A stretch of DNA of 64,000 bases from the NCBI GenBank assembly GCA_002989075.1, contig PSQN01000014.1:248001-312000 (forward strand), written 5' to 3'. This document shows, in pieces, positions 11,255 to 48,953 of this stretch. The stretch is from Arthonia radiata. Taxonomy: Eukaryota; Ascomycota; Arthoniomycetes; Arthoniales; Arthoniaceae. Within the stretch, counting starts at the first letter, position 1, and each line of letters opens with the position of its first letter. A program made the position numbers and the translations under genes. Below the pieces are notes generated by a model. That model had not been told where the DNA came from, ran no database searches, and was given only the letters and a program-made list of their open reading frames with translations.

Positions 11255-11813
11255 TCACAATCTGTCCAATGCACCCAACCGCGCCCGCAGCGCCCGCACT
11301 TCCCCTTTCAAGACCCCGACCACGGCCTGCGTGGCGCGCTGGTCCACTTCTGCGCCGGGCAGTAGCTTCGCCATGCGCTTGTTGTCCTTGTATGTGCGCG
11401 TCAGGCCGAACAGGACGAAGGCCGTGACGACGAGCATCCACATTAGGAAGACGCTGGGCTGGATGTTAGCGAGACTGTGCTGGAGTAACCAGGATGGTTG
11501 GATGTGGTTTGGATTTGAGACTTGCGACCAGCGCCGGTGCTGCAATGTAGGAAAGGTAGGTGACTTACAAGAACCCCAGGTCCATGTCGCTGGTCCTGTG
11601 CTTCAGCAGCAGGAGGTCCTCGGTGTGCAGCTTGTGCCAGTAGGAATGCTTCGCGAGCGTGTTGCCGTGCGCTTGTAGCGCGATGGTGTTCTTGCGGGTT
11701 TGCTGTGCGAGCGGCCATGTCCGGCATGGCGAGTCGACGTTTTGGATGTTTCCCGAGATGAGGAAGAGGGCGGTGAAGAGGAGACCGGCGCGGGCGGTGA
11801 GGAACTCGGCCAT
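11255..11813 (-). CDS. Small two-helix membrane protein with coiled-coil tail, 2 exons
   Basis: Exons 11813-11569 and 11453-11255 join in phase to 147 residues. Residues 5-25 (ARAGLLFTALFLISGNIQ) form a signal anchor or signal peptide. A loop of about 55 residues with one Cys follows. A second helix across the junction (VFLMWMLVVTAFVLFGL) precedes a basic, heptad-like tail ending VRALRARLGALDRL. The donor is GTAAGT; I use the AG at 11455-11454 because the AG five bases upstream would break the frame. I do not recognise the family. Its layout matches that of the membrane/coiled-coil genes that follow, so I take it as the left edge of that cluster. Confidence 0.65.
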
Positions 11814-12586
11814 TGTGATTGAAGTAGGTGGGATTTGCTGTGATAGTGTGATGTGGGTGTTGAGTAGATGTGGTGTGGTGAATGTAGGCGAAGATGATGG
11901 TGGTGGTGAGGGTGCGTGGTTGAGTGAGGAAAATGAAGGGAGCTGAGGAGGAGAGAAGACTGAGAGAAAGATGCTTGGGAAGAGAGTAATATATGTTTGG
12001 CGTGAATAGGCTATTGTGAATAATTCGGGTGGCTGGACGCATTGTTCTGACAATACGAATCATCACTGAATAAGTCTTGGCGCTCTAACGGCGGAGCTCG
12101 TGATGAGCATTGTTATTAGCGTATTGTCTTCTTATTCACAGGCGAGTTTGCGTCACTCTCTGAAAAGACTATGATGCTGACAATAATGAGGAAGCCGTAT
12201 CGCTGTTCGAGAAGGTCGACATCTCAGAGCAACTCACTCTCATCCCATCACCGGATCTGTGACATTCACTCCAGGAGCGCAACTCAATTGCAAAGCTTTC
12301 TAATGCAATGTGATTGATCGTGTTTGCTATTCATATACTTGCGCATGACAGAGCTGGAGACTCATCTATAATGCCTTGGGATTTGGTCATGTCACCGCGC
12401 GGACCCCCTTAAACCACCAAGTTGCTATCATGGCAACACAGGCTGGGCTCAACCTTGGCCCCCAGCCTTGCAAGCAGAGGCTCGATACGTAATGCAGTCT
12501 TCATTCTGATCATCATACCCATTCTCCGCAGCTGATGACACTTATCCTCATGCCGAACCCCCATTGATGCTGACCGACCGTATCCC
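11814..12586. other. Intergenic
   Basis: This holds the promoter of the 11.3 kb gene, with a CT/CA-rich tract on its coding strand at about 11880-11980, and the 3' side of the 12.6 kb gene. An overlapping longer frame that runs through 12066 begins at a non-conserved upstream start and is probably untranslated leader. Confidence 0.45.
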
Positions 12587-14656
12587 CTACGTAAAGTTCT
12601 TTGGCATGACGAATCTCACCTTCTTGTTCTGGCCCGCCTGCATATCGTCGGTGCTCTTTGCGGTATCTTCAGGAGTCGACCTGCTATCAGCCAGACCTCC
12701 GCGCGAAGAGCCACTCCCACCGGTTTGATTGCTCCACGCCGGCGGCCCGAACAACGTTGGCGGGGCATGGAAGCCATTCGAGGTAGCTGCCCCAAATGCG
12801 ACTGGCTGTGGGCTGGCCGCAGCACGTGCAAGGAAGGGATTCGTGGGTCGTGCCGCAGTCTGAGCAACAGCAGCCTGGCGCGAGCTCGGCGAAATGCCGC
12901 CCACATCGAATCGAAAAGCTGACGAAGACTGTTGCTTAGCGTGCTCACCCGGAGCGTGCTGTACCTCCTTCTGGGTCTTGACTGGAAATGTCGCAAACTG
13001 GTGCAGCTTCGGCGTGGGTGGGAGGGCGGATTGGGGCCCTGGCTTCCAGTGCTCTCCTGAGGCAGGCTTGGGGGCAGCCATACCACTGTTGAAGCCGGCC
13101 TTCGGTTCTGCGTCAGATATCGCGCGCGCCGTGGAACTGGCTTCATCTGACGTTGATCCGAACCGTGTGAATGTCAATTTGCTGAAGACGTCCTCAACTT
13201 CCTTCGAGCAATCGCGGGTCTCACTTGGCTTTGGTGATGTGTTCACTCCAGCGGCGTGGCCGTCATCGGATCTGTCACCTTCGAGATGGTTGCTGCGTGG
13301 CGGAGCTGGTAAGGTTGGGGCCGTCGGAAGAGCGTGTGTGGCCGAGGTACTAGGCTTTTTACCCTCTGCTGCGGCATCACACACGCCGGCGTCCGTGTCG
13401 GTCCTAGCCTTCGCACGTGCAGCTTGCTTTGCAAGCATCTGCTTTGCGAGAGCGTCGTCGGCATTTTGGCGGACACTGATCGAAGAGGTGGGCTGTTCGA
13501 GAGCCAGGTTCTTGCGCATTTCAGCCAGGCGAGCCTTGCCATTAGGCGGCGCCGGTGACTTGTCGGCGTAGTTGAGATTCTTCGCCTGTTCGAGTGCGCT
13601 GCGGTTGCTCTCGATAGCGCTGTTCTTACCAGCGTTCTTCCCGGTCGTTTCATTCGCAGGGTTCTTGGGCACTACAGCCGCGGCGCTCTTGCCCGAGGGT
13701 TGCGCCGCTGATTTGTCGGCATAGTTGAGGTTCTTCGCATGTGTCGATGATGTGCGGCTGCTCTCGATAGTGCTCTTCTGTGTAGAGTCTGTCTCAGTCT
13801 TTTCGTTCGCCACGCTCTTGGGTGCTGTAGCCGCGGCATCCTTGTCTGAAGAGTGCGCCGCTGAATGGTCAGAATTGCTGAGGCTCTTCGCATTCTTGAA
13901 TACTGTGCGGCTGCTCTCGATGGCGCTCTTCTCACCAGAGCCTGTCTCAGTCTTCGCATTTGCAAGGCCCTTAGGCGCTGCAGCTGCGGCAAGCTTGGTC
14001 GAAGGTTGCGTGGCTGACTTGTCGGCATAGTCGAGGTTCTCTGCATGTCCAAGGATTGTACGGTCGCTGTCGATGGCGCTCTTCTTAGCAGAGTCTGTCT
14101 CAATCTGTGCATTTGCAAGGCCTTTAGGCGCTCCAGCCACGGCGGTCTTGTCCGAAGGTTGCGCGGTTGACTCGTCAACGAGGTTGGAGTTTTCCGTATG
14201 AACTACTGTTGTGTGAGTACTGTCGATAGCGTCGTTTTCGGCGCGGGTGTCCCCGATCTGTTTGTCGGCGGTCTGGTCTTGATTCACTTGGCCGTCAGTC
14301 GCTTCGCTGCGGCTCGGCTGGCTTCCAATCTTCTGATCGCAGCCGTTCTGGATGTCCTTCTGCGAGTGACCGCCTGATCCATGACTAGACAACCGATCAC
14401 CGCCGTTTGGCTTGCCATCCCTCATGACGGCATCAGCTTGATCGATACCACCGTCGATCTCAGGCGATTGCTTGCCATCAGCTTGTTGCGAGTCGCACTT
14501 CTCATCGGTAGATTCTTCAGCAACGTTGGCGTCTGTGGTGGAGGTCTTGTCGACCCGCCTAGTGGATAGGATTTCCTCGAGTTCAGACAGTCTAGAGGCA
14601 ATCTGGTTGTGCTGGTCGTTGCTGACCATGTTCTTCAGATCCTCATTGTGAGCTTC
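12587..14656 (-). CDS. Frame-shifted 3' part of a long coiled-coil membrane protein: repeat region and low-complexity tail
   Basis: This frame is open for about 690 codons and is in a different frame from the upstream part (14635-16106). It opens EAHNEDLKNMVSNDQHNQIA, which continues the 13-residue repeat of the upstream part, so both were one gene. The first ATG in it is at 14629 and would give 680 residues. After a short coiled coil (ASRLSELEEILSTRR) it is highly polar, with about four to five copies of a 51-residue repeat, an Ala/Pro-rich stretch, and a C-terminus ending KKVRFVMPKNFT. Motifs such as NPFLARAA, VAFGAA and LFGPP give a faint FG-like flavour. It may be a dead 3' end, or it may be reached by splicing out a 47 base segment with a poor GTCACA donor. 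Confidence 0.6.
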   Translation of the reverse strand, partial: EAHNEDLKNMVSNDQHNQIASRLSELEEILSTRRVDKTSTTDANVAEESTDEKCDSQQADGKQSPEIDGGIDQADAVMRDGKPNGGDRLSSHGSGGHSQKDIQNGCDQKIGSQPSRSEATDGQVNQDQTADKQIGDTRAENDAIDSTHTTVVHTENSNLVDESTAQPSDKTAVAGAPKGLANAQIETDSAKKSAIDSDRTILGHAENLDYADKSATQPSTKLAAAAAPKGLANAKTETGSGEKSAIESSRTVFKNAKSLSNSDHSAAHSSDKDAAATAPKSVANEKTETDSTQKSTIESSRTSSTHAKNLNYADKSAAQPSGKSAAAVVPKNPANETTGKNAGKNSAIESNRSALEQAKNLNYADKSPAPPNGKARLAEMRKNLALEQPTSSISVRQNADDALAKQMLAKQAARAKARTDTDAGVCDAAAEGKKPSTSATHALPTAPTLPAPPRSNHLEGDRSDDGHAAGVNTSPKPSETRDCSKEVEDVFSKLTFTRFGSTSDEASSTARAISDAEPKAGFNSGMAAPKPASGEHWKPGPQSALPPTPKLHQFATFPVKTQKEVQHAPGEHAKQQSSSAFRFDVGGISPSSRQAAVAQTAARPTNPFLARAAASPQPVAFGAATSNGFHAPPTLFGPPAWSNQTGGSGSSRGGLADSRSTPEDTAKSTDDMQAGQNKKVRFVMPKNFT
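13540..14230 (-). repeat. In-frame 153 base coding minisatellite (51-residue repeat)
   Basis: Equivalent points of the repeat on the plus strand begin at 13562, 13715, 13868, 14021 and 14174, an exact 153 base spacing each time. Each unit encodes 51 residues with a core like AIESSRT..AKNLNYADKSA and a K[GSN]xAN[AE] element. Units differ by substitutions but not by length. This shows selection for, or copying of, in-frame units. Confidence 0.85.
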
Positions 14657-16106
14657 GTTGGATCGTTCGCATGAGCTTCATGTGTGACCATGCTCTTCAG
14701 ATCGTTCGCATGAGCTTCCTGGGTGATCATAATCTTCAGATCGTTCGCATGAGCTTTCTGGGTGACCATGCTCTTCAGATCGTTCGCATGAGCTTTCTGG
14801 GTGACCATGCTCTTCAGATCGTTCTCATGAGCTGCTTGACTGACTTTGGTCTTCAGGTCTTCCTCGTGGGCTTCTCTACTGACCATACTCTTCATATCAT
14901 TCTCATGAACTTCCTGGCTGACCATGTTGCTCAGACTCTTCTTGTGAGCTTCCTGACTGACCACGCTGTCCAGACTCTTCTGATGATCCTCCTTGCTGAT
15001 CAAACTATCGAGATCCTTCGCATAGACTTCCTTGCTGATCAAGTTGTCAAGATCATTCCGGTAATCGCACTGTTTGACCATATTGTCCAGAGCCTTCGAC
15101 TCTGCCTTGGATTCAAGCTGAGTCCTCATTGCAGCTGCATCTGCAAGCTGGTCCTGCTTGAAGAGGTCAAACTCCTCTTGGGTGACTTGTTTCGGCGGCG
15201 GATCAACCGCTGTTGAGCTTGCAACAGTGCGCTCGGATAATGCCGTGGCAATTCGATCATCGACGTACTTCTTCATTCCCTGCTCCCACTCCGAACGTCG
15301 CTTTGTTTCGGCCTCCTTCTCGATCGCAGCCTGGGACTTGGCCTCTTCATGTTTCCGAGTGCAATCCTTACGAGCCATCTTGACGTCGTTTCTGGCCTCT
15401 TTAGCCTCGTCTTTGGTAACTCGGACACCCTCCTCAACGCTCTTAACGCGCTCGCCGTAACTGTCGACGGTGAATCTTGCGCCGTTAGCTGTGGTCTTGG
15501 CCTCACGGACGTCGGCAGCTATGTCTTCGACCTTACGCTCCGTCTTCTCTGCGGTCTGAAAAAGCCCGTGGAGCTTGTTGTGAAAGTCTCCTAGGCCAGT
15601 GAAGAATTCCTCCTTAGTGGGCATGCGATCGAGCTGGCGTCTACTCATTCTCGCGGCGTACACGAGGTAAGAACATCCGATTCCCAAAAACATCAGCAAT
15701 ATGAAGCCACCTATTAGACTGTTGCTGAGTTTATTTTCAACCTTTCCCACGCGGTTACCAATCTCATTGTGATTCTTGTCGATGACAGACGACAAGAATT
15801 CCTGTCCCAGTTCGTTCTTCGCGACTTCGTGTTTAAGAAGAGTGATGTTTCGTTCGTGATTGTCGAGAGTAGCTCGAAATGTAGCAAGCTCCTCGGCCAG
15901 AAGTTGCGGGTCTTTAGCTATGATCGAGCAAGTCAGCAACGAACTGGATCTATCGTTGAACCAGCAAGGGCATCAGAAAGACTGCTGAAGTTATTCGGCT
16001 TACCATTTTGGATGTTTCTACGCTGCTCGTCGGTGCTGGGGACGGAGTTGGGCTCCTCCAGATCGCCGGAAGACCAGAAGTCTAACACCTTGAGGAAGTT
16101 GAACAT
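14635..16106 (-). CDS. 5' part of a long membrane-anchored coiled-coil protein, 2 exons
   Basis: Exon 1 (16106-16004) encodes MFNFLKVLDFWSSGDLEEPN and joins in phase to exon 2 (15917-14635); donor GTAAGC, branch-like CTGAC, acceptor ATAG. The product is 461 residues. One clear transmembrane helix (SLIGGFILLMFLGIGCSYLVY) lies near residue 130, after a heptad-rich segment. A long charged coiled coil follows, then the 13-residue repeats. The frame ends at TGA 14637-14635, just after the shortened repeat unit. The natural partner is the open frame beginning at 14656. I do not recognise the family. The layout resembles the 46.3 kb gene. Either this is a truncated but expressed protein or one half of a broken gene. 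Confidence 0.7.
14638..15080 (-). repeat. 39 base coding repeat (13-residue coiled-coil unit) with one shortened unit
   Basis: On the plus strand GATCGTTCGCATGAG-type starts fall at 14661, 14700, 14739, 14778 and 14817, a strict 39 base period. Older, more diverged units continue to about 15080. The protein unit is like AHANDLKSMVTQK. The next expected start, at 14622, is instead found at 14638, so one unit is 16 bases short. This shifts the reading frame. Confidence 0.88.
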
Positions 16107-16684: not shown

Positions 16685-17194
16685 ATGGCGCTTCCGCTGC
16701 TCGCACCAATCCGCTACCCGAGATATCTCGCCGGAGCCGCCTTGACTACAATCCTCACCCCGCTAGCCGACTGGCATAATAGCCGTATTGCCAGATGTAT
16801 GGGAATGACTAGGCCAGCATTTCCTGAGGAGATCGACAAGTATCGAGAGTACCGGGAGAAGCACGACAGCTGTGTCGGTGAAATACTGACGGACAACTTC
16901 ATCATGCTTGTCCTTGCAATTCCCTTGCTTACCGCACTCATCAGCTGGTCCACAACCATCCTCCCCAAGCTGTGCTCTTGTCTAGCGAGACTTACACTCA
17001 ACACTGAGAGAGTAATCAAATCTGCCGGTCGGTCGGTCGCTGGGTATTGTGGTGGACAACAGAACAACGCCGTGCGCCTGAAGGACGATAATCGAAAGCT
17101 GAAGGACCAGGTTGATCGACTCCGCAAGGAATTGGATCAAGAGCGTGAGAAGAGTGACCAACTCGAAGGGGAACTTCTCAGTCTGAACAAGTGA
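16685..17194 (+). CDS. Family A membrane/coiled-coil protein, copy 1
   Basis: The intronless frame encodes 169 residues from the ATG at 16685. A hydrophobic N-terminal helix (about 10-28) ends in the family motif TPLADWHNSRIARC. A loop of about 50 residues with a second Cys (HDSCVGE) leads to DNFIM and a second helix, LVLAIPLLTALISW. The tail from about 115 to the end is a strong coiled coil (LKDDNRKLKDQVDRLRKELD). Three other copies, at 21.9, 26.7 and 38.4 kb, share this layout. The expected topology is a lumenal or extracellular loop with a cytosolic coiled coil. I know no described family with this motif. It sits divergent from the 14.6-16.1 kb gene and convergent with family B copy 1. Confidence 0.78.
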   Translation: MALPLLAPIRYPRYLAGAALTTILTPLADWHNSRIARCMGMTRPAFPEEIDKYREYREKHDSCVGEILTDNFIMLVLAIPLLTALISWSTTILPKLCSCLARLTLNTERVIKSAGRSVAGYCGGQQNNAVRLKDDNRKLKDQVDRLRKELDQEREKSDQLEGELLSLNK

Positions 17195-17439
17195 AGAGAT
17201 CGCGTCTCTGGATTCCCACGACGAGCATGCGATGACATTTTGCAGGACAGGAAGGTGGATGCACACAGCTGGCTTCAAAAGTACTGATCATGTCACCGAA
17301 TGCGACCTCGGAAGCAGCAACTTGGTGGCGAAGAATAAAGGTTGTTGGCCGACCTCAGAGTGATGCTGGACCATGCGGTCGAAAAGAAATCTGCCTTTGA
17401 ATTTAAATTCAGAAGCGCAGCTCAATAGAAGTGATGAGG

Positions 17440-17979
17440 CTATATCCCTCCATCACGCGCTCCCGGTAGCTGCATTGACTCCGTAACGATGCGTCTGATC
17501 TCTTTTACAAGTGCCTCGCGCTTTTTCCGCTCATGTAGACGTGACCTTTGCGCCTGCAGTCCCTTCTGGAGGTCTTGAGCTGCTGCCACGAATATCGGGC
17601 TTGATCTTGAGCTTTGGTAGCAACGAGCAACAAGAGCATGATAGAAGGTCGCGGCGATGATGCAAATGATCATAAAACCCAGAACGACGGTCGTCAATTC
17701 GATCTTATCTAGCTCGAATGGATGCCCTTGATCAAAGCCAAATATCGAGGCAAGATTGTTGTATGGTATGCGAGAAACTGGATCAGCTGGTAGCCGGGAT
17801 TGATGCTCTCCGTAATTTCCAGAGAGGGTGTGTTGCGCTGCTGCACGTTGGGGAAGTGCGGGATCTGATCGTAAGTTATAGAGCCATTGAAGTGTAGTTC
17901 CTGCGACAATAGCTAGCTGCAGGAAGGAGTCTGCAGCTTCATTGAGCGGAACGAAAATCCATTGAATAGATCCTGCCAA
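17440..17979 (-). CDS. Open frame without ATG; possible second exon or alternative end of family B copy 1
   Basis: The frame runs about 179 codons to a TGA-type end (IVTESMQLPGARDGGI) and has no ATG before its second hydrophobic segment. It overlaps the last 41 bases of family B copy 1 in another frame. It holds a moderately hydrophobic stretch (ADSFLQLAIVAGTTLQWLY), a clear helix (TTVVLGFMIICIIAATFYHAL), and a basic coiled coil (LQAQRSRLHERKKREALVKE). Membrane-helix-plus-coiled-coil content like its neighbours suggests it is, or was, coding. A 37 base intron, 18026-17990 (GTGCGC..TTTTAG), would link it in frame to the family B protein while removing that protein's helix. That is unproven. 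Confidence 0.45.
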   Translation of the reverse strand: MAGSIQWIFVPLNEAADSFLQLAIVAGTTLQWLYNLRSDPALPQRAAAQHTLSGNYGEHQSRLPADPVSRIPYNNLASIFGFDQGHPFELDKIELTTVVLGFMIICIIAATFYHALVARCYQSSRSSPIFVAAAQDLQKGLQAQRSRLHERKKREALVKEIRRIVTESMQLPGARDGGI

Positions 17980-18373
17980 GTGCGATGATTGCTAAAATCA
18001 CCAGCACATACAACCAGTTGTTGCGCACTTCCACAGCCGAAAGTAAGAATTTGGTCGCGGCAACGCTATCATTGAAACGGCTCAGCAGGGCGCTGAGATT
18101 CAGCCAGCATATTCGTTCATGCTTCAGACACGTGTTCTGCACGTCAACGTTGCACGTACTTGGCGTATGAATGGGTTGATGATCTGGTACCGGTATCACG
18201 CCCTTTGGCAGAGACGTGTCGATAGTCAAGGCCTCCTTTATGCGTTCGAGATCATTGTGCAGACGGTAGTCCATGTAGTCGTGCCAGATGCTGCGCCCAA
18301 CCAGGAATATAGCGCCTGCTTTTCCAAGCTGTGTGGCGAATGGCTTGAAGCTGTGAAGGAATGGTACGGCCAT
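17939..18373 (-). CDS. Family B membrane protein, copy 1
   Basis: The intronless frame encodes 144 residues. A weak N-terminal hydrophobic segment (AGAIFLVGRSIWHDYMDY) is followed by SLPKGVIP and then CNVDVQNTCL, the two family B signatures. Two sequons (NLS, NDS) lie in the following region. A C-terminal helix (WLYVLVILAIIALGRIY) ends the protein almost at once, without the tail seen in copies 2 and 3. It is convergent with family A copy 1. Function is unknown. The conserved Cys pair suggests an oxidised loop outside the cytosol. It may be spliced onto the 17440-17979 frame. Confidence 0.72.
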   Translation of the reverse strand: MAVPFLHSFKPFATQLGKAGAIFLVGRSIWHDYMDYRLHNDLERIKEALTIDTSLPKGVIPVPDHQPIHTPSTCNVDVQNTCLKHERICWLNLSALLSRFNDSVAATKFLLSAVEVRNNWLYVLVILAIIALGRIYSMDFRSAQ

Positions 18374-19571: not shown

Positions 19572-21365
19572 CTAACGCCTGAGGAAAATACCGCTTCGTG
19601 CAGACTTCAGACTCTTGGCGTCGTGCGGAGCCTTGGCCCATCGACTTCCTTCCAGAGCCTGGCCCTGGCTGGAAGCCGACTTCGCGAACCGCGAGTCTTG
19701 CGCACTTGGGATGGCTTCGACAGCTGACTGTGGGTCTGGAGATGCTGAAGTGGTCGCAGCCGCGGCCGTACTGCCCTTCCTCTGAGCTGCTGCGCTGCCA
19801 CGACGTGGGCCCCCAGCCTGAGCGCCATCTTGATGGCTGGTGTTGCCTTGACTGGCATTGCTGGCGCGAGGTGTCGCATCAGTCCGCTGATCAGGCATAC
19901 CGAAGGGGTTGCCACTCGAGCTCGGCGCTGTAGTCTGAGAGCTAGGATTACTCTCGCGGATGGACTGGCCGCGAACTGCGCCAGGGAACGGGCGGCCAAG
20001 ATCCTGATTGTCTCTCACCTCTTCCCGATGCTCCTGCTGAGCATTGTGCTGGACCTTATCCTCCAGCGAGGTCAGGCGATGATGATGCTTGTCAAGCACG
20101 TCACCCTGCTCTGACTGCTCACCTTCGCAGTGAGCTATGCGGGTAGCATGCCCGTCCAAACACTCCTCTGCGCTGGTCATGCGACGCTTTGTGGCGTTCA
20201 CATCAGTCACGATCTTGGTGATGTTACTGTTGGTAGCTTTGTGGTTGCTGGTGAGGACGGTGACATCGTTGTTCAGCGCGCGGCGACTGGTCTCGTTGGC
20301 GGTCACTTGATCCCTGAGCGTGGTGTGGTTGGTCTCGATTGATGCGAGTCGCGTTTTGTGTGTGTTGTGATCGACGCTGAGGGCGTTGACGTTGGTCTTG
20401 AGTGTGTCTTGATCGGACTTGGAGGTGGCCATCTCGGCATTGACGGTACGTTGATCTGTTTTGATCTTGTTGACATCGTCCTTGAGCGCATCTTGATCAG
20501 CTCTCATGGTCGTGACCTCATCTCTGAGCTTGTTGTTATCTTCTTGCAGTGTGCGGACGAGAGCAGTCTGCATTGCATGCGCATTCATAGTGGTTGTCAC
20601 GCGCTCGTTGAGGCCATCATCAGAGCTCTGAGCCTGCGATGAAGTGCCTTTTGATGTCACGTTGGTGGCAGCCGTAGATTGTCCGACGCCTGCCGGCTCA
20701 GCGAGGTTCTCTTCAAGACTGGCAATACGGGAATCTTGAGACTTCAGCTGATCTTCTGTGTTGCTGCGGAACACAGAGTGGTCCCCCATGTCAACTTTAT
20801 CGCCCAGGCCATGCTTGATGTCGGCGACGTCCGCCCTCAGCTCGTCCTGTGCCTTGACCTGCTGCTTGTGGAACTTGAGAACAATGCGAAAGATGCGATT
20901 CTTCCACTTCCGCTCCTCAGACTTTTCCTTCTGAATGACGGCGACGTCGTTCCTGACCCGCTCAAAATCCTCAAATTTGACCATATTGCTGGCGACTATC
21001 TTCACTGTCTCATTCGTATCTTTCGTTAAGGGTTTCAACCCCCAATAGAGGCATATCGCGACAATCGCAGAAATCAACGCGAAGACTGCAATGATGATCG
21101 CGCCAATTATCCAACCTCTGTAAAATTTGACCGTATCAGTCGTTGCTGCGAGCGCGTCTTCTATTTTCGAGACTTTGTCCGTGTAGTCGGTTGTGAACCA
21201 TCTAAAGCTCAAGATGGCGCGATTGTTGAAGTCACGCTCGTTCTTCAAGCTCTTCCACCAATGATCGTTCCACAAACTAACCACAGCTTGGCAAGAGCCG
21301 GTGCCAATGACTGCCACGACCCCGGCCGCGACCAATTGGTAGATTTGAACCATGGGGATGTTCAT
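19572..21365 (-). CDS. Long two-helix coiled-coil membrane protein
   Basis: The intronless frame encodes 597 residues from the ATG at 21365. The first helix (YQLVAAGVVAVIGTGSCQAVV) is near residues 10-30. A loop of about 60 residues with several Trp follows, then a second strong helix (GWIIGAIIIAVFALISAIVA) near 85-105. Residues 120-430 are largely coiled coil with quasi-repeats of about 21 residues (LKDDVNKIKTDQ, LRDQVTANETSRRALNND). The tail is low-complexity and basic, ending SLKSARSGIFLRR. No family is recognised. Length and layout match the other two long genes, at 12.6-16.1 and 46.3 kb. A membrane-attached filament or tether is the simplest reading. Confidence 0.78.
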   Translation of the reverse strand: MNIPMVQIYQLVAAGVVAVIGTGSCQAVVSLWNDHWWKSLKNERDFNNRAILSFRWFTTDYTDKVSKIEDALAATTDTVKFYRGWIIGAIIIAVFALISAIVAICLYWGLKPLTKDTNETVKIVASNMVKFEDFERVRNDVAVIQKEKSEERKWKNRIFRIVLKFHKQQVKAQDELRADVADIKHGLGDKVDMGDHSVFRSNTEDQLKSQDSRIASLEENLAEPAGVGQSTAATNVTSKGTSSQAQSSDDGLNERVTTTMNAHAMQTALVRTLQEDNNKLRDEVTTMRADQDALKDDVNKIKTDQRTVNAEMATSKSDQDTLKTNVNALSVDHNTHKTRLASIETNHTTLRDQVTANETSRRALNNDVTVLTSNHKATNSNITKIVTDVNATKRRMTSAEECLDGHATRIAHCEGEQSEQGDVLDKHHHRLTSLEDKVQHNAQQEHREEVRDNQDLGRPFPGAVRGQSIRESNPSSQTTAPSSSGNPFGMPDQRTDATPRASNASQGNTSHQDGAQAGGPRRGSAAAQRKGSTAAAATTSASPDPQSAVEAIPSAQDSRFAKSASSQGQALEGSRWAKAPHDAKSLKSARSGIFLRR

Positions 21366-21896: not shown

Positions 21897-22463
21897 ATGA
21901 GTCTATCCGCTCTCGCTCCCTTCCGTTGCGCAGTGGCGATGGTGGGCTATGCGCTCACAATCTTGATCTCTCCCCTCACTGCCTGGCACGATCGTCGTAT
22001 CCAGGCATGCGTTGCCTGGAGCCGATCCCCCAACCGCACCGACCACAACGAGATGTTCGAGTATAGCACAGCAGTCCATGCAAGTGGAGAAGACGGCTCG
22101 TCTTGTTTCCACACCGTCGCGTTCGACGACTCCATCATGATCTTTTTGTCTCTGGTTGGCATGTTGGCCCTCTTCTTCTTCAGCTTGTATATCGCAGACA
22201 ATGAAGAAGCTGCAGCCCGCCTCAAGTCCGCAGTCAAATCTACCGGTCGGGTCATTGTCTCACCGTTCATCGCAATCTACAACGCTTCCGGTCGCCTCAT
22301 CGCCTTCCATTTTACCCGGGATTTTCGCACTGCAGAGCCAATGCGCGCCGAGCAAGACCGGACCCTTCAAGCATTGCGAGCGGACGTCGAGCAGATGGAG
22401 CAGGAGTCCGGGAAGCTCAAGGTGGAAGTCAAACTCTTTCGAACACATCTCGACTCGATATAG
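21897..22463 (+). CDS. Family A membrane/coiled-coil protein, copy 2
   Basis: The intronless frame encodes 188 residues. Helix 1 ends in ISPLTAWHDRRIQAC, nearly the same motif as copy 1. The loop has one sequon (NRT) and a second Cys (SSCFHT). DDSIM then leads into the second helix, FLSLVGMLALFFFSLYI. The tail, from about residue 135, ends in a coiled coil (LRADVEQMEQESGKLKVEVK). The ATG lies in AACATGA and is the only start before helix 1. It is followed by a convergent family B gene, the same order as copy 1 and its partner. Confidence 0.8.
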   Translation: MSLSALAPFRCAVAMVGYALTILISPLTAWHDRRIQACVAWSRSPNRTDHNEMFEYSTAVHASGEDGSSCFHTVAFDDSIMIFLSLVGMLALFFFSLYIADNEEAAARLKSAVKSTGRVIVSPFIAIYNASGRLIAFHFTRDFRTAEPMRAEQDRTLQALRADVEQMEQESGKLKVEVKLFRTHLDSI

Positions 22464-37531: not shown

Positions 37532-37849
37532 TTAAGATCCAAAGACAACAACAACACACACAGTTGCAATGACGAATATGTCGATCTTGATCGGCCATAT
37601 TGAATAACTCAACGCCTTCATCTCGGCTTCTGTTGCCAGCAGAGACACAGCTTTGGCGTCGATCTCCCACTTCCACTCGATGAAGAGATTCTTATAGTTT
37701 TCGGTACGGTCTGTATCGATTTGCGATGAGTGGACTGAGCCGAATGAGTTTGTCACAGCCGTATCCAATTCGTGAACAATGCTGTCGCCTATTGTCACCA
37801 GTTCGTAGTGCTCAACGATGCGGCTCTTCGCCATTGCGAGTGACTTCAT
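37532..37849 (-). CDS. Small protein with a C-terminal membrane helix
   Basis: From ATG 37849 the frame encodes 105 residues: a helical, mostly polar body (SRIVEHYELVTIGDSIVHELD) with two Trp (EWKWEIDAKAV), then one strong helix at the very end (IDIFVIATVCVVVVFGS). A tail-anchored protein is one reading. A truncated member of a longer cluster gene, cut after its helix, is another. The frame is open further upstream without a better start. Confidence 0.5.
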   Translation of the reverse strand: MKSLAMAKSRIVEHYELVTIGDSIVHELDTAVTNSFGSVHSSQIDTDRTENYKNLFIEWKWEIDAKAVSLLATEAEMKALSYSIWPIKIDIFVIATVCVVVVFGS

Positions 37850-38362: not shown

Positions 38363-38902
38363 ATGGCTGTTCAGCTGCTCAAACCGTTCTACTTTGTGGC
38401 AAGCAAGATCACCCCTGCCATGGAGGCGACGTGGAACAGTCTCACTTCTCCGCTGGTGGCCTGGCACAACAGCAATGTCGCCACTTGCGTCAACATGACC
38501 GAACCGGCACTTCCTCAAGATTTTTACGACAATGTCACGATCTCAAAGTACGGGGTGGCCAATAATATGTACCGGAACCAACTCCGTGAATGTAAGAGTC
38601 AGGTCGGAAGCTTTGAAGCCATAGCTACGAACTTGTTCATCATGTTCCTGATCGCGCTTGTTTTCTTCGCGCCACTCGTCCGGTTTGCGGTGTCGCAAGT
38701 GTCCAAGTCCATTTCGCATTGGATCAAGCCTGCAGCTCAATCGCCTGCACGATCATCCGATGGCGAAGCAGGCAAAGTCAACGCTCTTGAGAGTCAAGCC
38801 CGAGCAGCCAACGCTGAAGTCCACCGTCTGGAGCAGGAGCTGATCGAAGCGCGACGCAACTATGTCGTTCTCTCGCAGCGGATTCAGAAGATGAAGAATT
38901 GA
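38363..38902 (+). CDS. Family A membrane/coiled-coil protein, copy 4
   Basis: The intronless frame encodes 179 residues. The N-terminal segment ends in TSPLVAWHNSNVATC, very close to copies 1 and 2. The loop has sequons NMT and NVT and a second Cys (RECKSQ). TNLFIM leads into helix 2 (FLIALVFFAPLVRFAV). The tail is a strong coiled coil (LESQARAANAEVHRLEQELI). Helix 1 is weaker than in the other copies (LLKPFYFVASKIT). It is the first gene of the second A-C-F block. Confidence 0.8.
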   Translation: MAVQLLKPFYFVASKITPAMEATWNSLTSPLVAWHNSNVATCVNMTEPALPQDFYDNVTISKYGVANNMYRNQLRECKSQVGSFEAIATNLFIMFLIALVFFAPLVRFAVSQVSKSISHWIKPAAQSPARSSDGEAGKVNALESQARAANAEVHRLEQELIEARRNYVVLSQRIQKMKN

Positions 38903-39511: not shown

Positions 39512-40363
39512 ATGAGGGGCCTCATCCTAAGCGCTGGAATTGCGGCTGGCGCAGTCACTGGCGACATCTTTGCTATTGTCAAGTTTGAGTCTACTAATGC
39601 TGGTCCTGGAGGAGTGAGTGAGCCTGGAAACATGTCTACAAACTGGTCGCAACCGCTCAACGCCTCGGCCTTCTCCACGTTGAACATCTCGAATACCACC
39701 GGAGCATTATGGCCCATGTCAAGCAGTGATGGCGACCGGAATTACCAGCTTCGCAACATCATGAGTACCGCTATGGCTGCTGTCACTTTTGCAGTCATTC
39801 TTTACGTATCCGGACCAATGCACATCGCACAACACCTCCTCATTTCCATGCTCGGATCTCTGAGGGCGCAAGGCATGACCTGGGGTGCCATCATGCTGGA
39901 GAATGTTCAATGTCTGATACTCACGGTCTTGGCACTTGTGATGAACCTCATTAACACCATTTCGAACTTCGCGCTTCTGGCGAAGATCACAGACCATGAT
40001 AAGGCAATTGAAACACTGCAGCAACTCAGTTTATCGTTCAACAAGGTCTTGGACAGCCAGACGAAGGTTTTCCAAACGGTGGAGGAGAACGGTCGGACGG
40101 AGCTGGCTCGACGCAACGAAGTGTTAGAGACTATCAAGGCATATGTCGAGGAAATCGGCGGTCTACCGCAGAGATTCAATGCAGCGACCGAGCGCATCAG
40201 CAGCCTCGAACATAAGTTGGGCGTGGCCGAAGCAAAGTCTATTAATCTCGAGCAGCAGGTCAGCGACGTCAAAGCCCAGAACAAGGTCCTGGAGCAAAAG
40301 GTGCGAGCGCGTGATGAACACTCCAGCGAGCTTTCCGAGAGTCCCTCAAACAAGATATCATAG
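39512..40363 (+). CDS. Family C glycosylated-loop membrane/coiled-coil protein, copy 2
   Basis: The frame encodes 283 residues from ATG 39512 (a GTG six bases upstream is not used). MRGLILSAGIAAGAVTGDI matches copy 1. The loop of about 70 residues carries five sequons (NMS, NWS, NAS, NIS, NTT). Two hydrophobic segments follow (MAAVTFAVILYVSGP and CLILTVLALVMNLINTI). Residues 160-275 are coiled coil, ending NKVLEQKVRARDEHSSELS, aligned with NALLEQKLRVRDEVIKELS of copy 1. The middle of the protein has diverged strongly, while the two ends and the loop chemistry are kept. Confidence 0.8.
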   Translation: MRGLILSAGIAAGAVTGDIFAIVKFESTNAGPGGVSEPGNMSTNWSQPLNASAFSTLNISNTTGALWPMSSSDGDRNYQLRNIMSTAMAAVTFAVILYVSGPMHIAQHLLISMLGSLRAQGMTWGAIMLENVQCLILTVLALVMNLINTISNFALLAKITDHDKAIETLQQLSLSFNKVLDSQTKVFQTVEENGRTELARRNEVLETIKAYVEEIGGLPQRFNAATERISSLEHKLGVAEAKSINLEQQVSDVKAQNKVLEQKVRARDEHSSELSESPSNKIS

Positions 40364-40741: not shown

Positions 40742-41551
40742 CTACTCATCCCCGTCCCTGCCCCTTCTGACAAGCTTATGACGCCCCATGAAATGCGGCT
40801 TCACGACAACTCCTTTCTCAATACGCCGAAACTGCTCTGGATGTCGCTTGTAATGCTCCTGGCTATCGCGTGGATCCTTCGGAGCGTCAAGCACATGAGG
40901 CTGCCTTCGTTGAGCACGTGGACCTGTCGGAGTATCAAGCACGTCTCGCTCATCTCGCTGCTCAGACGCTCAAGACGAGAAAGGGTCCCAGCTGTTTCCG
41001 GCGTTGTGTCGTCTATGTTTGCAACCACCACGCTGGCGGACACGATATTCGCGTTTAGGTGGTTGAACAGAGTCCCCTGCTAGATCGCGGTCAATAGAGT
41101 GATCAGTGGTACTGGTGTTGTTATTTGCAGATGATGACGCCTGAGCTGGGGGCTTGTCGACTGCTATGGCGCTACTAACGTTGGAGCCAGTAGTGTCGTA
41201 GTAAGGCTTCTGCTCTTTCTCGTTAGTCGTGTAGTAGAAGTGCATGGCGGTTGTGGCCTCGAGTCTTTCCTCTGCATGTTGCACGTAACGTGTCGGATCT
41301 GTGTCACGAAGCTGAGCTTCTGTGGGTGACTGTTGCTTTTTGTTGAGTTGTTCGAACTTTCCACGGAGTTGAGCCAGCTCGTGTGCGTAGCACTGCATTG
41401 TCTCATCTTGTTGAAGGACCACTAGTTGGAGGGTCCGGACGTCGTCTTCGAGCTTCGTTGTCCGGCGTCTGTTATCCTTGTGGACACTCGCAGCACCTGC
41501 GCCAGGGGTGGTCCTAGCCGTAATGCTTGGTGGAAGCGCGGCTTCGTTCAT
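40742..41551 (-). pseudogene. Degraded family F copy without membrane exon
   Basis: The 5' frame (41551-40970) encodes 193 residues: a coiled coil (LQLVVLQQDETMQCYAHELA), a polar region and YRVRQRGGCKHRRHNAGNSW, then stops. A second frame, open to 40742, contains QEHYKRHPEQFRR and ends RRGRDGDE. It matches the end of family F copy 1 (REHYERRPNQRWR, GGRDGYGQ). The tail is thus in another frame, and I find no GT..AG intron that joins them in phase. No membrane helix is encoded upstream. Gene order (A, C, then F on minus) equals the 26.7-30.7 kb block. I read it as a decayed duplicate, though the first frame may still be expressed. Confidence 0.62.
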
Positions 41552-42048: not shown

Positions 42049-42585
42049 CTAGATAGCAGTAACCTTCCCGTTAGCGATCTTATATTTCATAGGCTTGCCA
42101 TCCTCTTTCAACCACGGCTGAAACTGCTTTGCGCCAGGTATCATTGTCATCAATCTATTCTCACCATACTGGACCGCCGCGGTTTTCTCTTTGAAATTCG
42201 TATCCCTGCGATCGGTCAGCATTATTAGGCTGTGACAAAGCGCTGAAGAAGAGACCGAGTCATACAGGAGATTGGCGATCATTTTATGGCCTTTGTCTTT
42301 CTCCACGTCGCTTGGAAAGCGCTTTCCGTCGTTTCCAGGTTTTTTGGTCTCTAGGGAACTGGCTTGGCTTATTATGAGTGGCAAGAAAGACTGCAAGGTA
42401 GCTTGGTGTTCTTTGTGGTCCTTATCGATGAGCTTCTTAAACAACTGCTTATAGTCTTGCAAGGCCCACACTTCGAATGTACCGGTAGCCTCCAAGATGG
42501 TGTTGTACATTGCAGATGGACTTCGAACCAGGGATGTGTGTGTGTCAACTTCTGCAACGGTGACCTTGACAGAGGCCAATTCCAA
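42049..42585 (-). CDS. Hypothetical soluble protein, 5' exon missing
   Basis: The frame is open for about 178 codons with its first ATG well inside (42510). It encodes an alpha-helical protein with Lys-rich parts (YKQLFKKLIDKDHKEHQATL, KKPGNDGKRFPSDVEKDKG) and no membrane helix. A CTGGTAG acceptor just upstream (about 42594) suggests an earlier exon holding the start, but I could not identify it with confidence. No family is recognised. It differs from its membrane neighbours. Confidence 0.5.
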   Translation of the reverse strand: MELASVKVTVAEVDTHTSLVRSPSAMYNTILEATGTFEVWALQDYKQLFKKLIDKDHKEHQATLQSFLPLIISQASSLETKKPGNDGKRFPSDVEKDKGHKMIANLLYDSVSSSALCHSLIMLTDRRDTNFKEKTAAVQYGENRLMTMIPGAKQFQPWLKEDGKPMKYKIANGKVTAI

Positions 42586-43459: not shown

Positions 43460-43951
43460 TCAAGACTTAGCCGCGCGCCTCTTCTCCTTCGCCGCGAACC
43501 CTCTCTGCAACTCCGCGAGCTGCTCCTCTAGCTCCTCAAATGTGGGCAGGGCCTCCGTCGTCTTCTCGTTCACCGCCGGCGCCTTCTCCAGCCGAGCGCT
43601 CCGTCGCATGTCCCGAATATTCCCCTTCCCCTTTTTCACCATGTCTCTAGTCTTCGCATCCTCCTTGAAGACTACCGTCATGATCGACGATACCGACTCG
43701 ATCAGTTGGCCTTGCTGCTTTGTGGTAGTGGCGATTGCAGCATTCAGCTCGTTCACATTGTTCACGTTGGCGCGCACGATCTTTTCCACGTCTCCGAAGC
43801 CCTTTTTCAAAGCCTCTCCGACGGACGTGAGGATGACTTCTTGGTTGGCTTCGAGGCGGCGGATACGGATGATGAGATAGGCGATGAGAAACCACGGGCC
43901 GAGGAGGACGATGGCAAGGAGGGTAGGAAAGATGGTGTCAATGAGTGTCAT
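43460..43951 (-). CDS. Family E single-helix coiled-coil protein, copy 1
   Basis: From ATG 43951 the frame encodes 163 residues. A strong N-terminal helix (TLLAIVLLGPWFLIAYLII) is followed directly by a coiled coil (RIRRLEANQEVILTSVGEAL, NVNELNAAIATTTKQQGQL), a basic linker and the C-terminal box ELEEQLAELQRGFAAKEKRR. The 44.6 kb gene ends in nearly the same box, and the two are adjacent and co-oriented, so they are tandem duplicates. There is almost no outer loop: the N-terminus is about six residues. It is likely a type I/II anchor with everything else cytosolic. Confidence 0.75.
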   Translation of the reverse strand: MTLIDTIFPTLLAIVLLGPWFLIAYLIIRIRRLEANQEVILTSVGEALKKGFGDVEKIVRANVNNVNELNAAIATTTKQQGQLIESVSSIMTVVFKEDAKTRDMVKKGKGNIRDMRRSARLEKAPAVNEKTTEALPTFEELEEQLAELQRGFAAKEKRRAAKS

Positions 43952-44570: not shown

Positions 44571-45266
44571 TCATGCTCCGTCCTTGCTTCCTCGACGTTT
44601 CGCCTTCTCATCGAAACCTTTCTGCAGTTTGGCGAGAAGGACCTCAGCCTCGTCAATTGTTGGCACATTATCCTCCGTCCCAGACGGCGTAGCCTGATCC
44701 ATCGACTGCTCTCCGACTGGCGGATTGCTCGATCCCTTCTTCTTTGATTGCTTCGACGTGCTGTTCTGTGCGCCGCGTGCACCATCCTGATCATTTGCTG
44801 CAGAATTTGATGTAACACCACTTGTTCGCTCGACCTCGTTGCTCGCTTGCTCCGCTTGTTCTTTGATCGCCGCGCTCATGTCTTTCACCGGCTTAGGATT
44901 GTAAACGTTGTACGATAATATAGACGGAGGGTGGCGTGCACCCAGCTGATGTAGTTCTCGGAGCTGAGCCAAGACCACCGCATGATTGGCGATGACCCCT
45001 TTTGCTTCTTCCAAGTCCCGCTTTAGGGCAATGATTTCTTTGTCAGACAGTTCCCACAGGGTTAACATTTTGGAGTGCATCTCAGAGTTGTCAGAGTTGG
45101 CCTTGGCAGACAACTTCAGAACTGAGTACTGAGAGGCGTGCAGCGATCGGGTCTCGCGTAGCGTCATCCAACCCGTGAACCATGGCTGGAGGACGAGTAT
45201 GGCAATCAACGTTAGGATGAGTACTTCAGCCCGGCTCAAGTCGAGCTGGAAGATCCTTGTTGCCAT
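44571..45266 (-). CDS. Family E single-helix coiled-coil protein, copy 2
   Basis: From ATG 45266 the frame encodes 231 residues. The N-terminal helix (AEVLILTLIAILVLQPWFTGW) shares the PWF turn with copy 1. A coiled coil (MLTLWELSDKEIIALKRDLE) follows, then a polar Ser/Asn/Gln-rich linker longer than in copy 1. The end, EAEVLLAKLQKGFDEKAKRR, aligns with ELEEQLAELQRGFAAKEKRR of copy 1. Conservation of the two ends with a variable middle repeats the pattern of family C. The frame is open 10 codons further upstream from a GTG, which I do not use. Confidence 0.75.
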   Translation of the reverse strand: MATRIFQLDLSRAEVLILTLIAILVLQPWFTGWMTLRETRSLHASQYSVLKLSAKANSDNSEMHSKMLTLWELSDKEIIALKRDLEEAKGVIANHAVVLAQLRELHQLGARHPPSILSYNVYNPKPVKDMSAAIKEQAEQASNEVERTSGVTSNSAANDQDGARGAQNSTSKQSKKKGSSNPPVGEQSMDQATPSGTEDNVPTIDEAEVLLAKLQKGFDEKAKRRGSKDGA

Positions 45267-46334: not shown

Positions 46335-48953
46335 TTACATCAAGCTGGGATCTATATTACTTCCAGGTGGAGGCCGGCCACTAGGCATCGTGCTCGGGTC
46401 GGTGGGCCTGAGTGAGCGGCGAGTGCGAGCTGTCTCGTTCGTCTGAAAGGAGCGGTTGGCGCCTCCGCTCTGGCTGCGGATAAAGTATGGAGTATTTGTA
46501 CCATGCAGCTGTCCGCGAGATGGGTCGCTGTAGAAGTGGCCCTCGTCTTCGCTCGGATCATCGGCGTCGCTCTCTTCATCCTCCGCCGGTTTCTCGTCGT
46601 CCGTCAGCTGCAATTCGTTATCTGATGCCTGCTGCGGTGCTACTGCGACATCTGTGTCATGAGATGCTTTCACTTCAGTGTCCGTATCACCGTAGATACT
46701 GTCATCATCGCTTCCCACTCTGGCGGCATTGTCTTGAACATGCTGAATCTCATCGCTCAGCAAGCCTACCGCGGGCTGTGCGGCGCTGCCTGGCTGATTC
46801 TGAGCAAGCGCTCCCGCAAAGCCAAAACCACTTGTCTGCGCTGTCTGCGCTAGCGGTGAGTCGGATTGGGATACGTTGGTATCTGGTGCTACGTCTTTCA
46901 TAGCATGATCAGTGGCTTGTTGCGCTTCTGGAGGTGCATCTATCATACTCAAATCGGCGGCGCTGCCCGATGGAGCTTGCGTTTGAACGGCATCAGAGCA
47001 TGGTGCAGGCTGTGAGTGAGAAAGCGTCTCTACAGCAGAAGCTCCAGGTATGACGCGCCGTCTTCTGGGCTTCATCATACGTCGATTCTGAATGACATGT
47101 GTCGGAGCCTCTGCAGCAATGTCCTCCACAGCAATGTCATGCGCTTCCACAGCTGTCTCATCGATCCGCTCGTGCTGCAGCGTTCTGGCATTGCCAGATT
47201 GGAGGGTGTCAATAGCGCCATCAAAAGCTATGGATGGCTGACTTTCGGCTTGCTGCAAAAGAGCTGGTTGAAGTGATTTACGCAAGCCAGTCCCAGCAAC
47301 AGGCAGTGGCGCCTGCTGATCAACAGATCTGGCAAGATGACGTCCAGTCTGGGCAGCTGATGGCTCAAGTTGCGCCATTAGAGCAGCATCACTGCTGCCC
47401 TCCATCTTTGGACCTACTTGAACGTCCAGATTGCCGCAGTGCTGGTCGATGACCGGATTCTGCTCTTGACAAGAGCCGTGCTCCTCGAAGGAGTCGCTAT
47501 CCGTGAGCAACGTCGACTGTTGAGCTGTGCCCTGCTCCATGACGATCTCAGGAAGATGTTGCGCAGGTAGCGGCTGCATCAGCGGCTGCGGCAGCGACTG
47601 CTGCTCTTCCTCGGCCGTGCTCTCTTCCAGCACTATGCCCTGCTTCTCCATACTCTCATGGGCAAAATTCGGACCCAAGACACTCGATAATTCTTGATCT
47701 TGCGACTCCGAGCCATGCTGAGTTTGCTGTCCCAACGCGCTGCTTCCCTTCCGCTTGAGCTGATTGATGCTCAGTTTCACGGCGGCATTCTTCCTACTGA
47801 AACGCTTCCTGGTCTCCTCGTTGTCTGCCTTCATCTTGGCTTGGTCCTGCTCTAGCGTCTTGACCCTGCCATCAACGCCTTCGAGTACCTTTCTCGATTC
47901 AATCTTCTCCGTTCGCATTCGATCCTCGCATTGCCTCCATTCTTTCTTGATTTTCCTGGTATCGTCTTTGAAACGGTCCAGGCTTGCGGCTGTTTCAGCA
48001 CGGAGCTCCTTGTCCGATTCCTGCTTTGCCTTCGAATCGTCGTCGACATTCCTTATCGTATCCTCCGCCTTCTTCATCGCATCACTATGACTCGCAATGA
48101 GATTCTGCACGCTTTGCTCATGCTGGTCCCGCTCGCGGTGGAATGCTCTATCGTTTTCCTCCAGGCGATCAAGCGCCTGTTGCTTCATGCTAATGACGTC
48201 CTTTCTCAATTCGTTATGGCACTCTTTCGACTCCAGCAATTCGCTTCTTAATGACGTGACTTGATCCTCGACAGTATCAAGATCAGCAGACATGGCTCGG
48301 AAGTCAGTGACGTTCGCTTTGCGGATCAGCCAATTTTTCACGTAGCTGAGCACTTCTTGATGACGAGCTTTTTGTTCTTGATCACGGGCTTCTTGTTTTC
48401 GATCACGAGCTTCTTGTTCAGAGCAGCTTCGTTGTTCGAAATCAAGAAAATCCCTCTTCGTGACAAGTTGAGTCTCCGGCGACGCATTGCTGGCAGTTGC
48501 AGTGTCTGATATCTCGGTCTGTTGCTGTGCTTGTATTCCCTTGATGAGATTGGTAAGCTCTTCAACTTTCTCTCTATAGAAGACAAGCTCTTCGTTCCTC
48601 TTTCTGGGTTTGGACTGGTGAGTGAGAACGCTGTAGCCGATGAAGAACAGAACGGCGATCTCCCAGCGAAAGTTCCATGCATGTTGAAGAAGGGTGAAGT
48701 CGCCCTCCATATCGACGAGGTAGGTATGGAGAAGGTCGTGCGTGTATGTGACAATGGTTTCGATGTTCTCCGATCGCTCTTGCTGGACTCCGAGCTGGGC
48801 ACAAACGGTAGTCAGGTTGCCTTGCAGCTGAGCGGTGGCCTCGTCATGACCTTTGATGTGCGTGTTGAGTCGAGAATGGGTGGACAGCCACCCCAAACCC
48901 AAGAGACTTAGAATAGCAGGAAGGGTGTTCTGGAGGTGCCACACGAGAGTCAT
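46335..48953 (-). CDS. Long two-helix coiled-coil membrane protein (872 residues)
   Basis: The intronless frame is intact. A first helix (LPAILSLLGLGWL) near the N-terminus is followed by a heptad loop with one sequon and one Cys (NLTTVCAQLG). A second helix (WEIAVLFFIGYSVL) is near 95-110. Residues 120-410 are a long charged coiled coil; 150-175 carry the short repeat RKQEARDQEQKARHQE. The rest is Gln/Ala/Ser-rich and acidic, probably disordered, ending TMPSGRPPPGSNIDPSLM. The layout of helix pair, rod and disordered tail matches the 597-residue gene and the broken 12.6-16.1 kb gene. No described family is recognised. Coiled-coil proteins attract chance matches to myosin and tropomyosin. Confidence 0.82.
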   Translation of the reverse strand: MTLVWHLQNTLPAILSLLGLGWLSTHSRLNTHIKGHDEATAQLQGNLTTVCAQLGVQQERSENIETIVTYTHDLLHTYLVDMEGDFTLLQHAWNFRWEIAVLFFIGYSVLTHQSKPRKRNEELVFYREKVEELTNLIKGIQAQQQTEISDTATASNASPETQLVTKRDFLDFEQRSCSEQEARDRKQEARDQEQKARHQEVLSYVKNWLIRKANVTDFRAMSADLDTVEDQVTSLRSELLESKECHNELRKDVISMKQQALDRLEENDRAFHRERDQHEQSVQNLIASHSDAMKKAEDTIRNVDDDSKAKQESDKELRAETAASLDRFKDDTRKIKKEWRQCEDRMRTEKIESRKVLEGVDGRVKTLEQDQAKMKADNEETRKRFSRKNAAVKLSINQLKRKGSSALGQQTQHGSESQDQELSSVLGPNFAHESMEKQGIVLEESTAEEEQQSLPQPLMQPLPAQHLPEIVMEQGTAQQSTLLTDSDSFEEHGSCQEQNPVIDQHCGNLDVQVGPKMEGSSDAALMAQLEPSAAQTGRHLARSVDQQAPLPVAGTGLRKSLQPALLQQAESQPSIAFDGAIDTLQSGNARTLQHERIDETAVEAHDIAVEDIAAEAPTHVIQNRRMMKPRRRRVIPGASAVETLSHSQPAPCSDAVQTQAPSGSAADLSMIDAPPEAQQATDHAMKDVAPDTNVSQSDSPLAQTAQTSGFGFAGALAQNQPGSAAQPAVGLLSDEIQHVQDNAARVGSDDDSIYGDTDTEVKASHDTDVAVAPQQASDNELQLTDDEKPAEDEESDADDPSEDEGHFYSDPSRGQLHGTNTPYFIRSQSGGANRSFQTNETARTRRSLRPTDPSTMPSGRPPPGSNIDPSLM

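Follow-up and report, generated by a model that had tools for sequence, protein, structure and literature searches.

A cluster of locally duplicated, putative membrane protein gene families between Ku80 and EFR3 in Arthonia radiata

We analyzed a window of 64,000 nucleotides from the genome of Arthonia radiata (bases 248001 to 312000 of a contig that we label C5; the genome comprises 33.5 Mb in 16 contigs). Between the Ku80 and EFR3 genes of this window, at positions 11258 to 48953, lies a cluster of 22 genes or probable genes plus one possible remnant (Table 1), many of them predicted to encode membrane proteins. Four of its families, which we call A, B, C, and E, come from old local duplication, with recognizable proteins kept and third codon positions close to saturation. 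The proteins and their mixture are uncatalogued in the sources that we searched; the lineage-specific tandem cluster is already known as a type of locus.

Membrane helices and coding signature

The cluster is enriched for open reading frames (ORFs) with one or two predicted membrane helices. Among nonoverlapping ORFs of at least 100 amino acids that begin with ATG, 17 of 29 in the cluster were of this kind, compared with 11 of 108 in a control of 17 loci and 170 kb from the same genome (Fisher P = 1.7e-7 at a hydropathy threshold of 1.8), and the enrichment was also significant at thresholds of 1.6 and 2.0. The control leaves out two loci without ORFs, L016 and L017 (guanine-plus-cytosine [GC] content, 0.23 and 0.31), and four of the 17 control loci lie next to the window. 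A second count made with other loci and another threshold gave 17 of 29 in the cluster versus 12 of 81 in 15 control loci, L016 and L017 included. Three or more transmembrane (TM) helices were predicted in one cluster ORF of the 29, and one of the 17 membrane ORFs (36657 to 36965) is absent from our gene list.

Codon statistics were trained on 50 ORFs outside the cluster. By this score, the own frame was the best of six for 26 of 27 cluster ORFs, the exception (40778) being antisense to gene G5, and 23 of 27 scored above the 95th percentile of 69 spurious ORFs. The four under that percentile were the stretch 17446 to 17880 and ORFs 32306, 35927, and 40778.

Paralogous families

We regard four families as firm: A (A1, A2, and A4), B (B1 to B3), C (C1 and C2), and E (E1 and E2). 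Their members found one another within the cluster set at phmmer expect values (E) of about 3e-6 to 3e-18 and aligned at z scores of 9.3 to 18.9 relative to hydropathy-preserving shuffles. Leave-one-out hidden Markov models (HMMs) recovered A1, A2, A4, and B1 to B3 at E values of 8e-11 to 7e-23. A3 joins family A weakly (z, 3.3; P = 0.01 against shuffles; leave-one-out HMM E, 6.3). Residues W30, C38, and C63 (A1 numbering) are common to family A, the cysteine pair being invariant in all four A proteins, and the three B proteins have a Cx7C motif in common. C1 and C2 are alike in their N-terminal segment and in a zipper-like C-terminal stretch; E1 and E2 share an N-terminal TM helix and a basic C-terminal motif, PT..E.E..LA.LQ.GF..K.KRR. 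An earlier note on this DNA had proposed several paralogue families. The phmmer, leave-one-out, and shuffle results support the local multiplication and the reality of A, B, C, and E; the pairing of F1 with F2, which the note also counted, has no support from sequence, and the place of A3 is weak.

Likeness among the other genes is one of layout. Shuffle tests gave no convincing mutual sequence relation among F1/F2, X1, and G1 to G4, and the tails of G3 and G5 match weakly (E, 2e-4) in arginine-rich sequence. A single superfamily for all families, suggested by the common succession of hydrophobic segment, loop, TM helix, and tail, was considered and rejected. The shuffle tests were unconvincing for the pairs A-B, C-A, G2/G3/G4, F1-F2, X1-F, 37532-B, and G3-B, with best interfamily scores of z 2.9 (P = 0.017) for G2 against G3, G4, and B2 and z 2.1 (P = 0.04) for A2 against B. 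No interfamily pair exceeded 15% probability in hhalign, in a run that had no positive control and whose probabilities are low by construction (for calibration, A against A3 gave an E of 0.041 and a probability of 1.3). Because the shuffle results were unconvincing and the hhalign run was weak, we do not claim common ancestry of the families.

Confinement to the locus and database searches

Whole-genome searches with A4, A1, B2, C1, E2, G2, G4, G3 exon 1, and F1 returned nothing outside the cluster below an E of 0.3. We discounted two outside matches, one of A4 on contig C11 (E, 0.32), where the ORFs look soluble and unrelated, and one of the C1 protein on contig C10 (E, 0.81). G2, G4, G3 exon 1, F1, and ORF 42049 matched only themselves. 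Families A, B, C, and E thus form a local tandem cluster, with paralogues adjacent and none elsewhere in their own genome.

Beyond this genome, no family reached the Pfam cut-off in the 29 cluster stretches scanned, and HET, NACHT, HeLo, and gasdermin domains were likewise without a match at that cut-off. Among 5.77 billion proteins, a search that requires shared 5-residue words returned no match to the alignments of families A and B at an E of up to 1, and a Ku80 exon run as a control in the same database gave 167 matches. The earlier description of the families as undescribed therefore holds for Pfam in the stretches scanned and for protein database homologues of A and B. Among the 120 of 167 Ku80 matches listed, for a length-limited query, none exceeded 68% identity and those named to species reached at most 48%; since the best match stands at 68%, close relatives may be absent from the database. 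The named Ku80 matches include the Dothideomycetes Trypethelium, Friedmanniomyces, and Coniosporium, as well as others, lichen fungi among them. Of the matches listed, the closest Ku80 exon (68%) lies on contigs of the European Nucleotide Archive, the longest of 39,920 bases, which, if syntenic, could show whether a relative has the cluster.

A viral or bacterial origin was rejected, as viral contigs held no relatives of A, B, or C and prokaryote genomes held none of B. Sequence searches of solved structures gave 8 matches for A and 4 for B, all at an E of at least 0.069 and mostly to coiled-coil stretches. Rfam gave no matches, and a literature search found no described cluster of this kind.

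Age and arrangement of the duplicates

Paralogue pairs are 24 to 37% identical over local alignments, and, where residues are identical, 55 to 76% of the fourfold sites differ. We compared codon positions in eight paralogue pairs over global alignments, a comparison that is not an estimate of the ratio of nonsynonymous to synonymous substitution rates. Third positions differed at 0.60 to 0.72 of sites, versus 0.70 to 0.72 in codon-shuffled controls, and for seven of the eight pairs, positions 1 and 2 differed as little as observed in no more than 1 of 60 shuffles. With positions 1 and 2 kept and the third near the shuffled level, the duplicates are old as DNA and preserved as proteins.

Gene order runs G1-A1-B1, G2-A2-B2, then A3-C1-G3(-B3) and A4-C2-G5. 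Of the 22 genes, families A and C account for all six on the plus strand, and the remaining 16 are on the minus strand, in a count that leaves out ORFs 36961 and 35927 and the 33310 stretch, all on the plus strand. Order and strand suggest block-wise duplication, of G-A-B twice and of A-C-G twice. Each A gene is 513 to 579 bp from its divergent neighbor.

Protein architecture

Proteins of families A, B, and C (and, by eye, L1, G2, G3, and G4) begin with a hydrophobic or amphipathic segment, followed by a loop, a TM segment, and a tail. A and B have one clear TM helix, with a preceding hydrophobic segment in A and a weaker one in B. The loops of C1 and C2 hold 3 and 5 N-glycosylation sequons, against expectations of 0.33 and 0.57 when the whole protein is shuffled. 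Together with the conserved cysteines of A and B, these sequons favor a lumenal or outer position of the loop. Of 18 proteins, 14 have a more positive net charge on the C-terminal side of the main TM helix than on the N-terminal side, 3 are tied, and 1 is reversed, which favors a cytosolic location of the tail in A and B; in the C proteins, two predicted TM segments follow the loop, so that the tail could lie on either side.

A heptad segment scored above local shuffles (P of 0.05 or better) in 15 of 21 ORFs. It followed the TM helix in A1, A2, A4, C1, C2, E1, G1, G2, G4, and X1 and preceded it in F1, F2, and G3; that of B2 lies in the N-terminal hydrophobic part. No such segment was found in A3, B1, B3, E2, the 17446 stretch, or ORF 37532. 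The earlier note had nearly every gene pairing one or two membrane helices with a coiled coil or disordered tail; the helices are present in the 17 of 29 ORFs counted above, and the coiled coils are not universal. A crude count of g-e' charges favors self-pairing in A1 (6/12), C2 (8/12), and G2 (8/12), with 0/8 for A4. For hetero-pairs, which the earlier note had suggested as part of a surface recognition system or membrane scaffold, the same count gave 0 to 3 for A-C, a tail pairing that is not favored by charge and that we set aside, and 2 to 5 for A-G, which lends some support to a possible A-G pairing.

In three A comparisons the loop was never the least conserved part; in B2-B3 it was. 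This mixed pattern makes loop divergence no clear sign for or against a role in recognition. As a separate observation, E1 and E2 are identical at 16 of 33 positions in the C-terminal stretch versus 28 of 105 in the middle of the protein, and the C-terminal stretch is possibly a binding or targeting signal.

Proposed function and alternative explanations

Our tentative reading, to which we give somewhat less than an even chance, is that these are lineage-restricted membrane proteins of the secretory pathway with a lumenal or outer loop, assembling at the membrane partly by their coiled-coil tails. The proteins would insert into a secretory-pathway membrane or the plasma membrane, with the N-terminal hydrophobic segment and the main TM helix flanking the loop and, in A and B, the C-terminal tail in the cytosol. 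Coiled coils would join the A, C, E, and larger G proteins as homo- or hetero-oligomers in complexes at the membrane, onto which the long low-complexity tails of the G proteins may recruit partners. The role is most likely structural or organizing at a membrane and lineage-specific, rather than catalytic.

Several results weigh against this account of the cluster and its history. The A2-A4 pair was not clearly better preserved than shuffles (6/60). The order of divergence by codon position (2 < 1 < 3) appeared in all eight pairs and equally in the codon-shuffled controls, and we withdrew it as proof of selection. The block-duplication reading relies on where A3 lies and on a single weak match, that of the G3-G5 tails. 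The four gaps upstream of the A genes have no 7- to 10-base word in common above chance, and a promoter motif common to the four genes divergent from A was not found; other gaps in the cluster are similar in size to those of the A genes. Against loop-only shuffles, the sequon excess was retained in C2 (P = 0.008) and was not significant in C1 (P = 0.07), whose sequons also occur in the TM segments and tail. Family B has no coiled-coil tail by the heptad test. Lastly, AlphaFold models were all-helical and of low confidence, with a predicted local distance difference test score (pLDDT) of 65.7 and a predicted template modeling score (pTM) of 0.35 for A and a pLDDT of 54.2 and a pTM of 0.24 for B.

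An explanation to which we give about one chance in four is that these are ordinary fast-evolving genes of the endomembrane system or septum, present across the class, whose orphan look comes from a search by 5-residue words and thin fungal coverage. The old age of the duplicates would suit it, as would the Ku80 control, in which nothing above 68% was listed, so that close relatives may be missing from the database. Against it, genes that consist of a single ORF, as those of A and B do, should be easy to predict, yet their alignments remained without a match at E values as high as 1. A known family of comparable anatomy is that of the claudin-like Sur7/PalI proteins, which have four TM helices, Sur7 with a cysteine pair in the loop before a TM helix. 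A and B resemble Sur7 in having a cysteine pair in the loop that precedes the TM helix but differ in having a hydrophobic segment and one clear TM helix, and they have no Pfam match to Sur7/PalI. Locally duplicated, lineage-specific clusters in fungi usually consist of one family, often secreted, and undergo birth and death of their tandem paralogues within a single locus. The same birth and death is seen here; in contrast to the usual single family, four firm families stand together with unrelated membrane genes of like layout.

A fungal locus for nonself recognition or incompatibility, in which variable membrane proteins would be tested in combination at hyphal fusion, is unlikely but deserves weight. 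The genes are clustered, multicopy, and orphan and are predicted to encode membrane proteins, which speaks for this reading. Yet the Pfam lists of the scanned stretches contain no HET, NACHT, HeLo, or gasdermin family, and in each of the three A comparisons the tail is conserved no better than the loop, B2-B3 being different in this respect. Fungal NLR-HeLo and gasdermin-protease clusters, as described in two reports (PMC10197012 and PMC12881547), likewise place unlike families side by side and involve membrane-active helices; the present cluster has none of the NLR, HeLo, gasdermin, or protease families by Pfam and has predicted TM anchors instead.

More speculative, and improbable as matters stand, is the idea of a "membrane supergene," in which A, B, C, E, and the large G proteins, though belonging to unrelated families, would be inherited together as one set and build one lineage-specific membrane assembly. 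Its genes would stay at one locus because the parts must fit one another, and the assembly might serve self/nonself testing at cell fusion. If true, this would be a eukaryotic structural gene cluster without an enzyme or known domain. Fungal gene clusters are usually attributed to metabolism, secreted effectors, or selfish genes. The present one lacks a catalogued domain or recognizable enzyme and mixes unrelated membrane families whose duplicates have stayed together until silent sites neared saturation. Either selection keeps the parts linked, as in a structural supergene that would be a candidate for self-recognition, or local duplication alone has held the families in place for that long.

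We consider it very unlikely that the region is decaying or was never functional, a set of random ORFs and pseudogenes. Weak ORFs (the 17446 stretch, 32306, and 35927), the change of frame within a repeat of G1, the remnant-like stretch 33310 to 34050, and the codon-position order, first read as selection and then found in shuffled controls, would all fit decay. The coding signature of 23 of 27 ORFs argues against it, as does the preservation of seven of eight paralogue pairs beyond shuffled controls at near-saturated third positions.

The explanation with the least to recommend it is a wtf-like array of killer meiotic drivers, an analogy that the earlier note had drawn and that was not borne out on the features compared (numbers of exons and TM helices): the genes are multicopy, as wtf spore killers are, and occur nowhere else in the searches made, but the report on wtf4 of Schizosaccharomyces (PMC5478261) describes six exons, six predicted TM helices, and a poison and antidote from alternative transcripts, whereas A, B, C, and E are single ORFs, the proteins here mostly have one or two TM helices, and several unrelated families are mixed in one cluster.

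Gene inventory and surroundings

Outside the cluster, Pfam identified an EF1-alpha-like gene, an adenosine deaminase-domain gene, Ku, EFR3, fungal MED15, and MED31 in the window. The earlier count of about 20 genes and remnants is close to the list in Table 1, and all three flanking genes that it named (Ku80, EFR3, and MED15) were confirmed by Pfam. It had also set mostly intronless cluster genes against intron-rich flanks. The A, B, C, and E genes are indeed single ORFs; the contrast with the flanks was overstated, as EFR3 and MED15 contain open stretches of 827 and 1337 amino acids and introns are likely within the cluster. By motif, donor-like sites occur in L1 (11568), G1 (16003), and G3 (30354), and these three appear to be intron-containing genes.

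TABLE 1 Genes, probable genes, and one possible remnant in the cluster (window positions)
Gene	Position	Strand	Description
L1	11258..11813	-	Small, probably two exons; N-terminal hydrophobic segment, loop, intron, TM, short tail; no Pfam match above cut-off
G1	12587..16105	-	TM near N terminus; coiled coil with 39-nucleotide repeats; low-complexity tail with 153-nucleotide repeats
A1 (family A)	16685..17194	+	169 amino acids; W30, C38, C63, TM, leucine-zipper tail
B1 (family B) and downstream stretch	17446..18373	-	ORF 17939-18373; TM-containing open stretch 17446-17880 with weak coding score, perhaps 3' exon of B1 or separate gene
G2	19572..21365	-	597 amino acids; two hydrophobic helices, long coiled coil, low-complexity tail
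A2 (family A)	21897..22463	+	Placed by paralogy searches, leave-one-out HMM, shuffles
B2 (family B)	23240..23770	-	Cx7C loop motif
F1	25672..26091	-	Single TM, acidic C terminus; no detectable paralogue
A3	26666..27157	+	Probable diverged family A member; z 3.3, P 0.01; missed by leave-one-out HMM
C1 (family C)	27673..28602	+	309 amino acids; 3 N-glycosylation sequons in loop, then two TM segments and coiled-coil tail
G3	29122..30651	-	Exon 1 in 30280-30651 frame (TM); donor-like site 30354; exon 2 from ~30255 down, low-complexity tail
B3 (family B)	31178..31660	-	Placed by paralogy searches, leave-one-out HMM
X1	32306..32716	-	Single TM, short coiled coil; weak coding score
Stretch 33310-34050	33310..34050	+	Open stretches with TM segments 33310-33558 and 33651-33881, then acidic stretch (by eye); possible remnant or multi-exon gene
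F2	34719..35078	-	Single-TM protein; no detectable paralogue
37532	37532..37849	-	Small protein, 105 amino acids, C-terminal TM; divergent neighbor of A4
A4 (family A)	38363..38902	+	Placed by paralogy searches, leave-one-out HMM, shuffles
C2 (family C)	39512..40363	+	5 sequons in loop
G5	40811..41551	-	Coiled-coil, low-complexity ORF without TM (40970-41551), then stretch resembling G3 tail
ORF 42049	42049..42510	-	153 amino acids, no TM, coding-like; no relative elsewhere in genome
E1 (family E)	43460..43951	-	N-terminal TM, conserved C-terminal motif
E2 (family E)	44571..45266	-	Paralogue of E1
G4	46335..48953	-	872 amino acids; N-terminal hydrophobic segments, coiled coil, low-complexity tail

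The N-terminal exon of G1 extends to 16105, as read by eye. Its coding region contains about ten units of the 39-nucleotide repeat (14622 to 15089) and four of the 153-nucleotide repeat (13598 to 14177), and its two ORFs (14635 to 15693 and 12587 to 14629) are in different frames that meet within the 39-nucleotide array, through a frameshift, an assembly error, or the presence of two genes. The acidic end of the stretch 33310 to 34050 resembles the F1 tail by eye, and the stretch may be an F-like pseudogene.

Between E2 and G4, outside the listed genes, a tandem repeat of about 162 nucleotides occurs in three to four copies that are 66 to 74% alike (45656 to 46214). The small soluble ORF at 36961 to 37212 (DPGKSLTEHETAALNARKEMSKHDKGS...) is outside the membrane set; it has a relative on contig C8 (L039, positions 1210 to 2019), with two similar stretches (E, 2e-5 and 0.19). 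Elsewhere in the genome, L016 and L017 together make up 20 kb (C3:500001-520000) with no ORF of at least 100 amino acids, and their GC content, compared with 0.50 to 0.55 in most other sampled loci, suggests a centromere-like or decayed repeat block.

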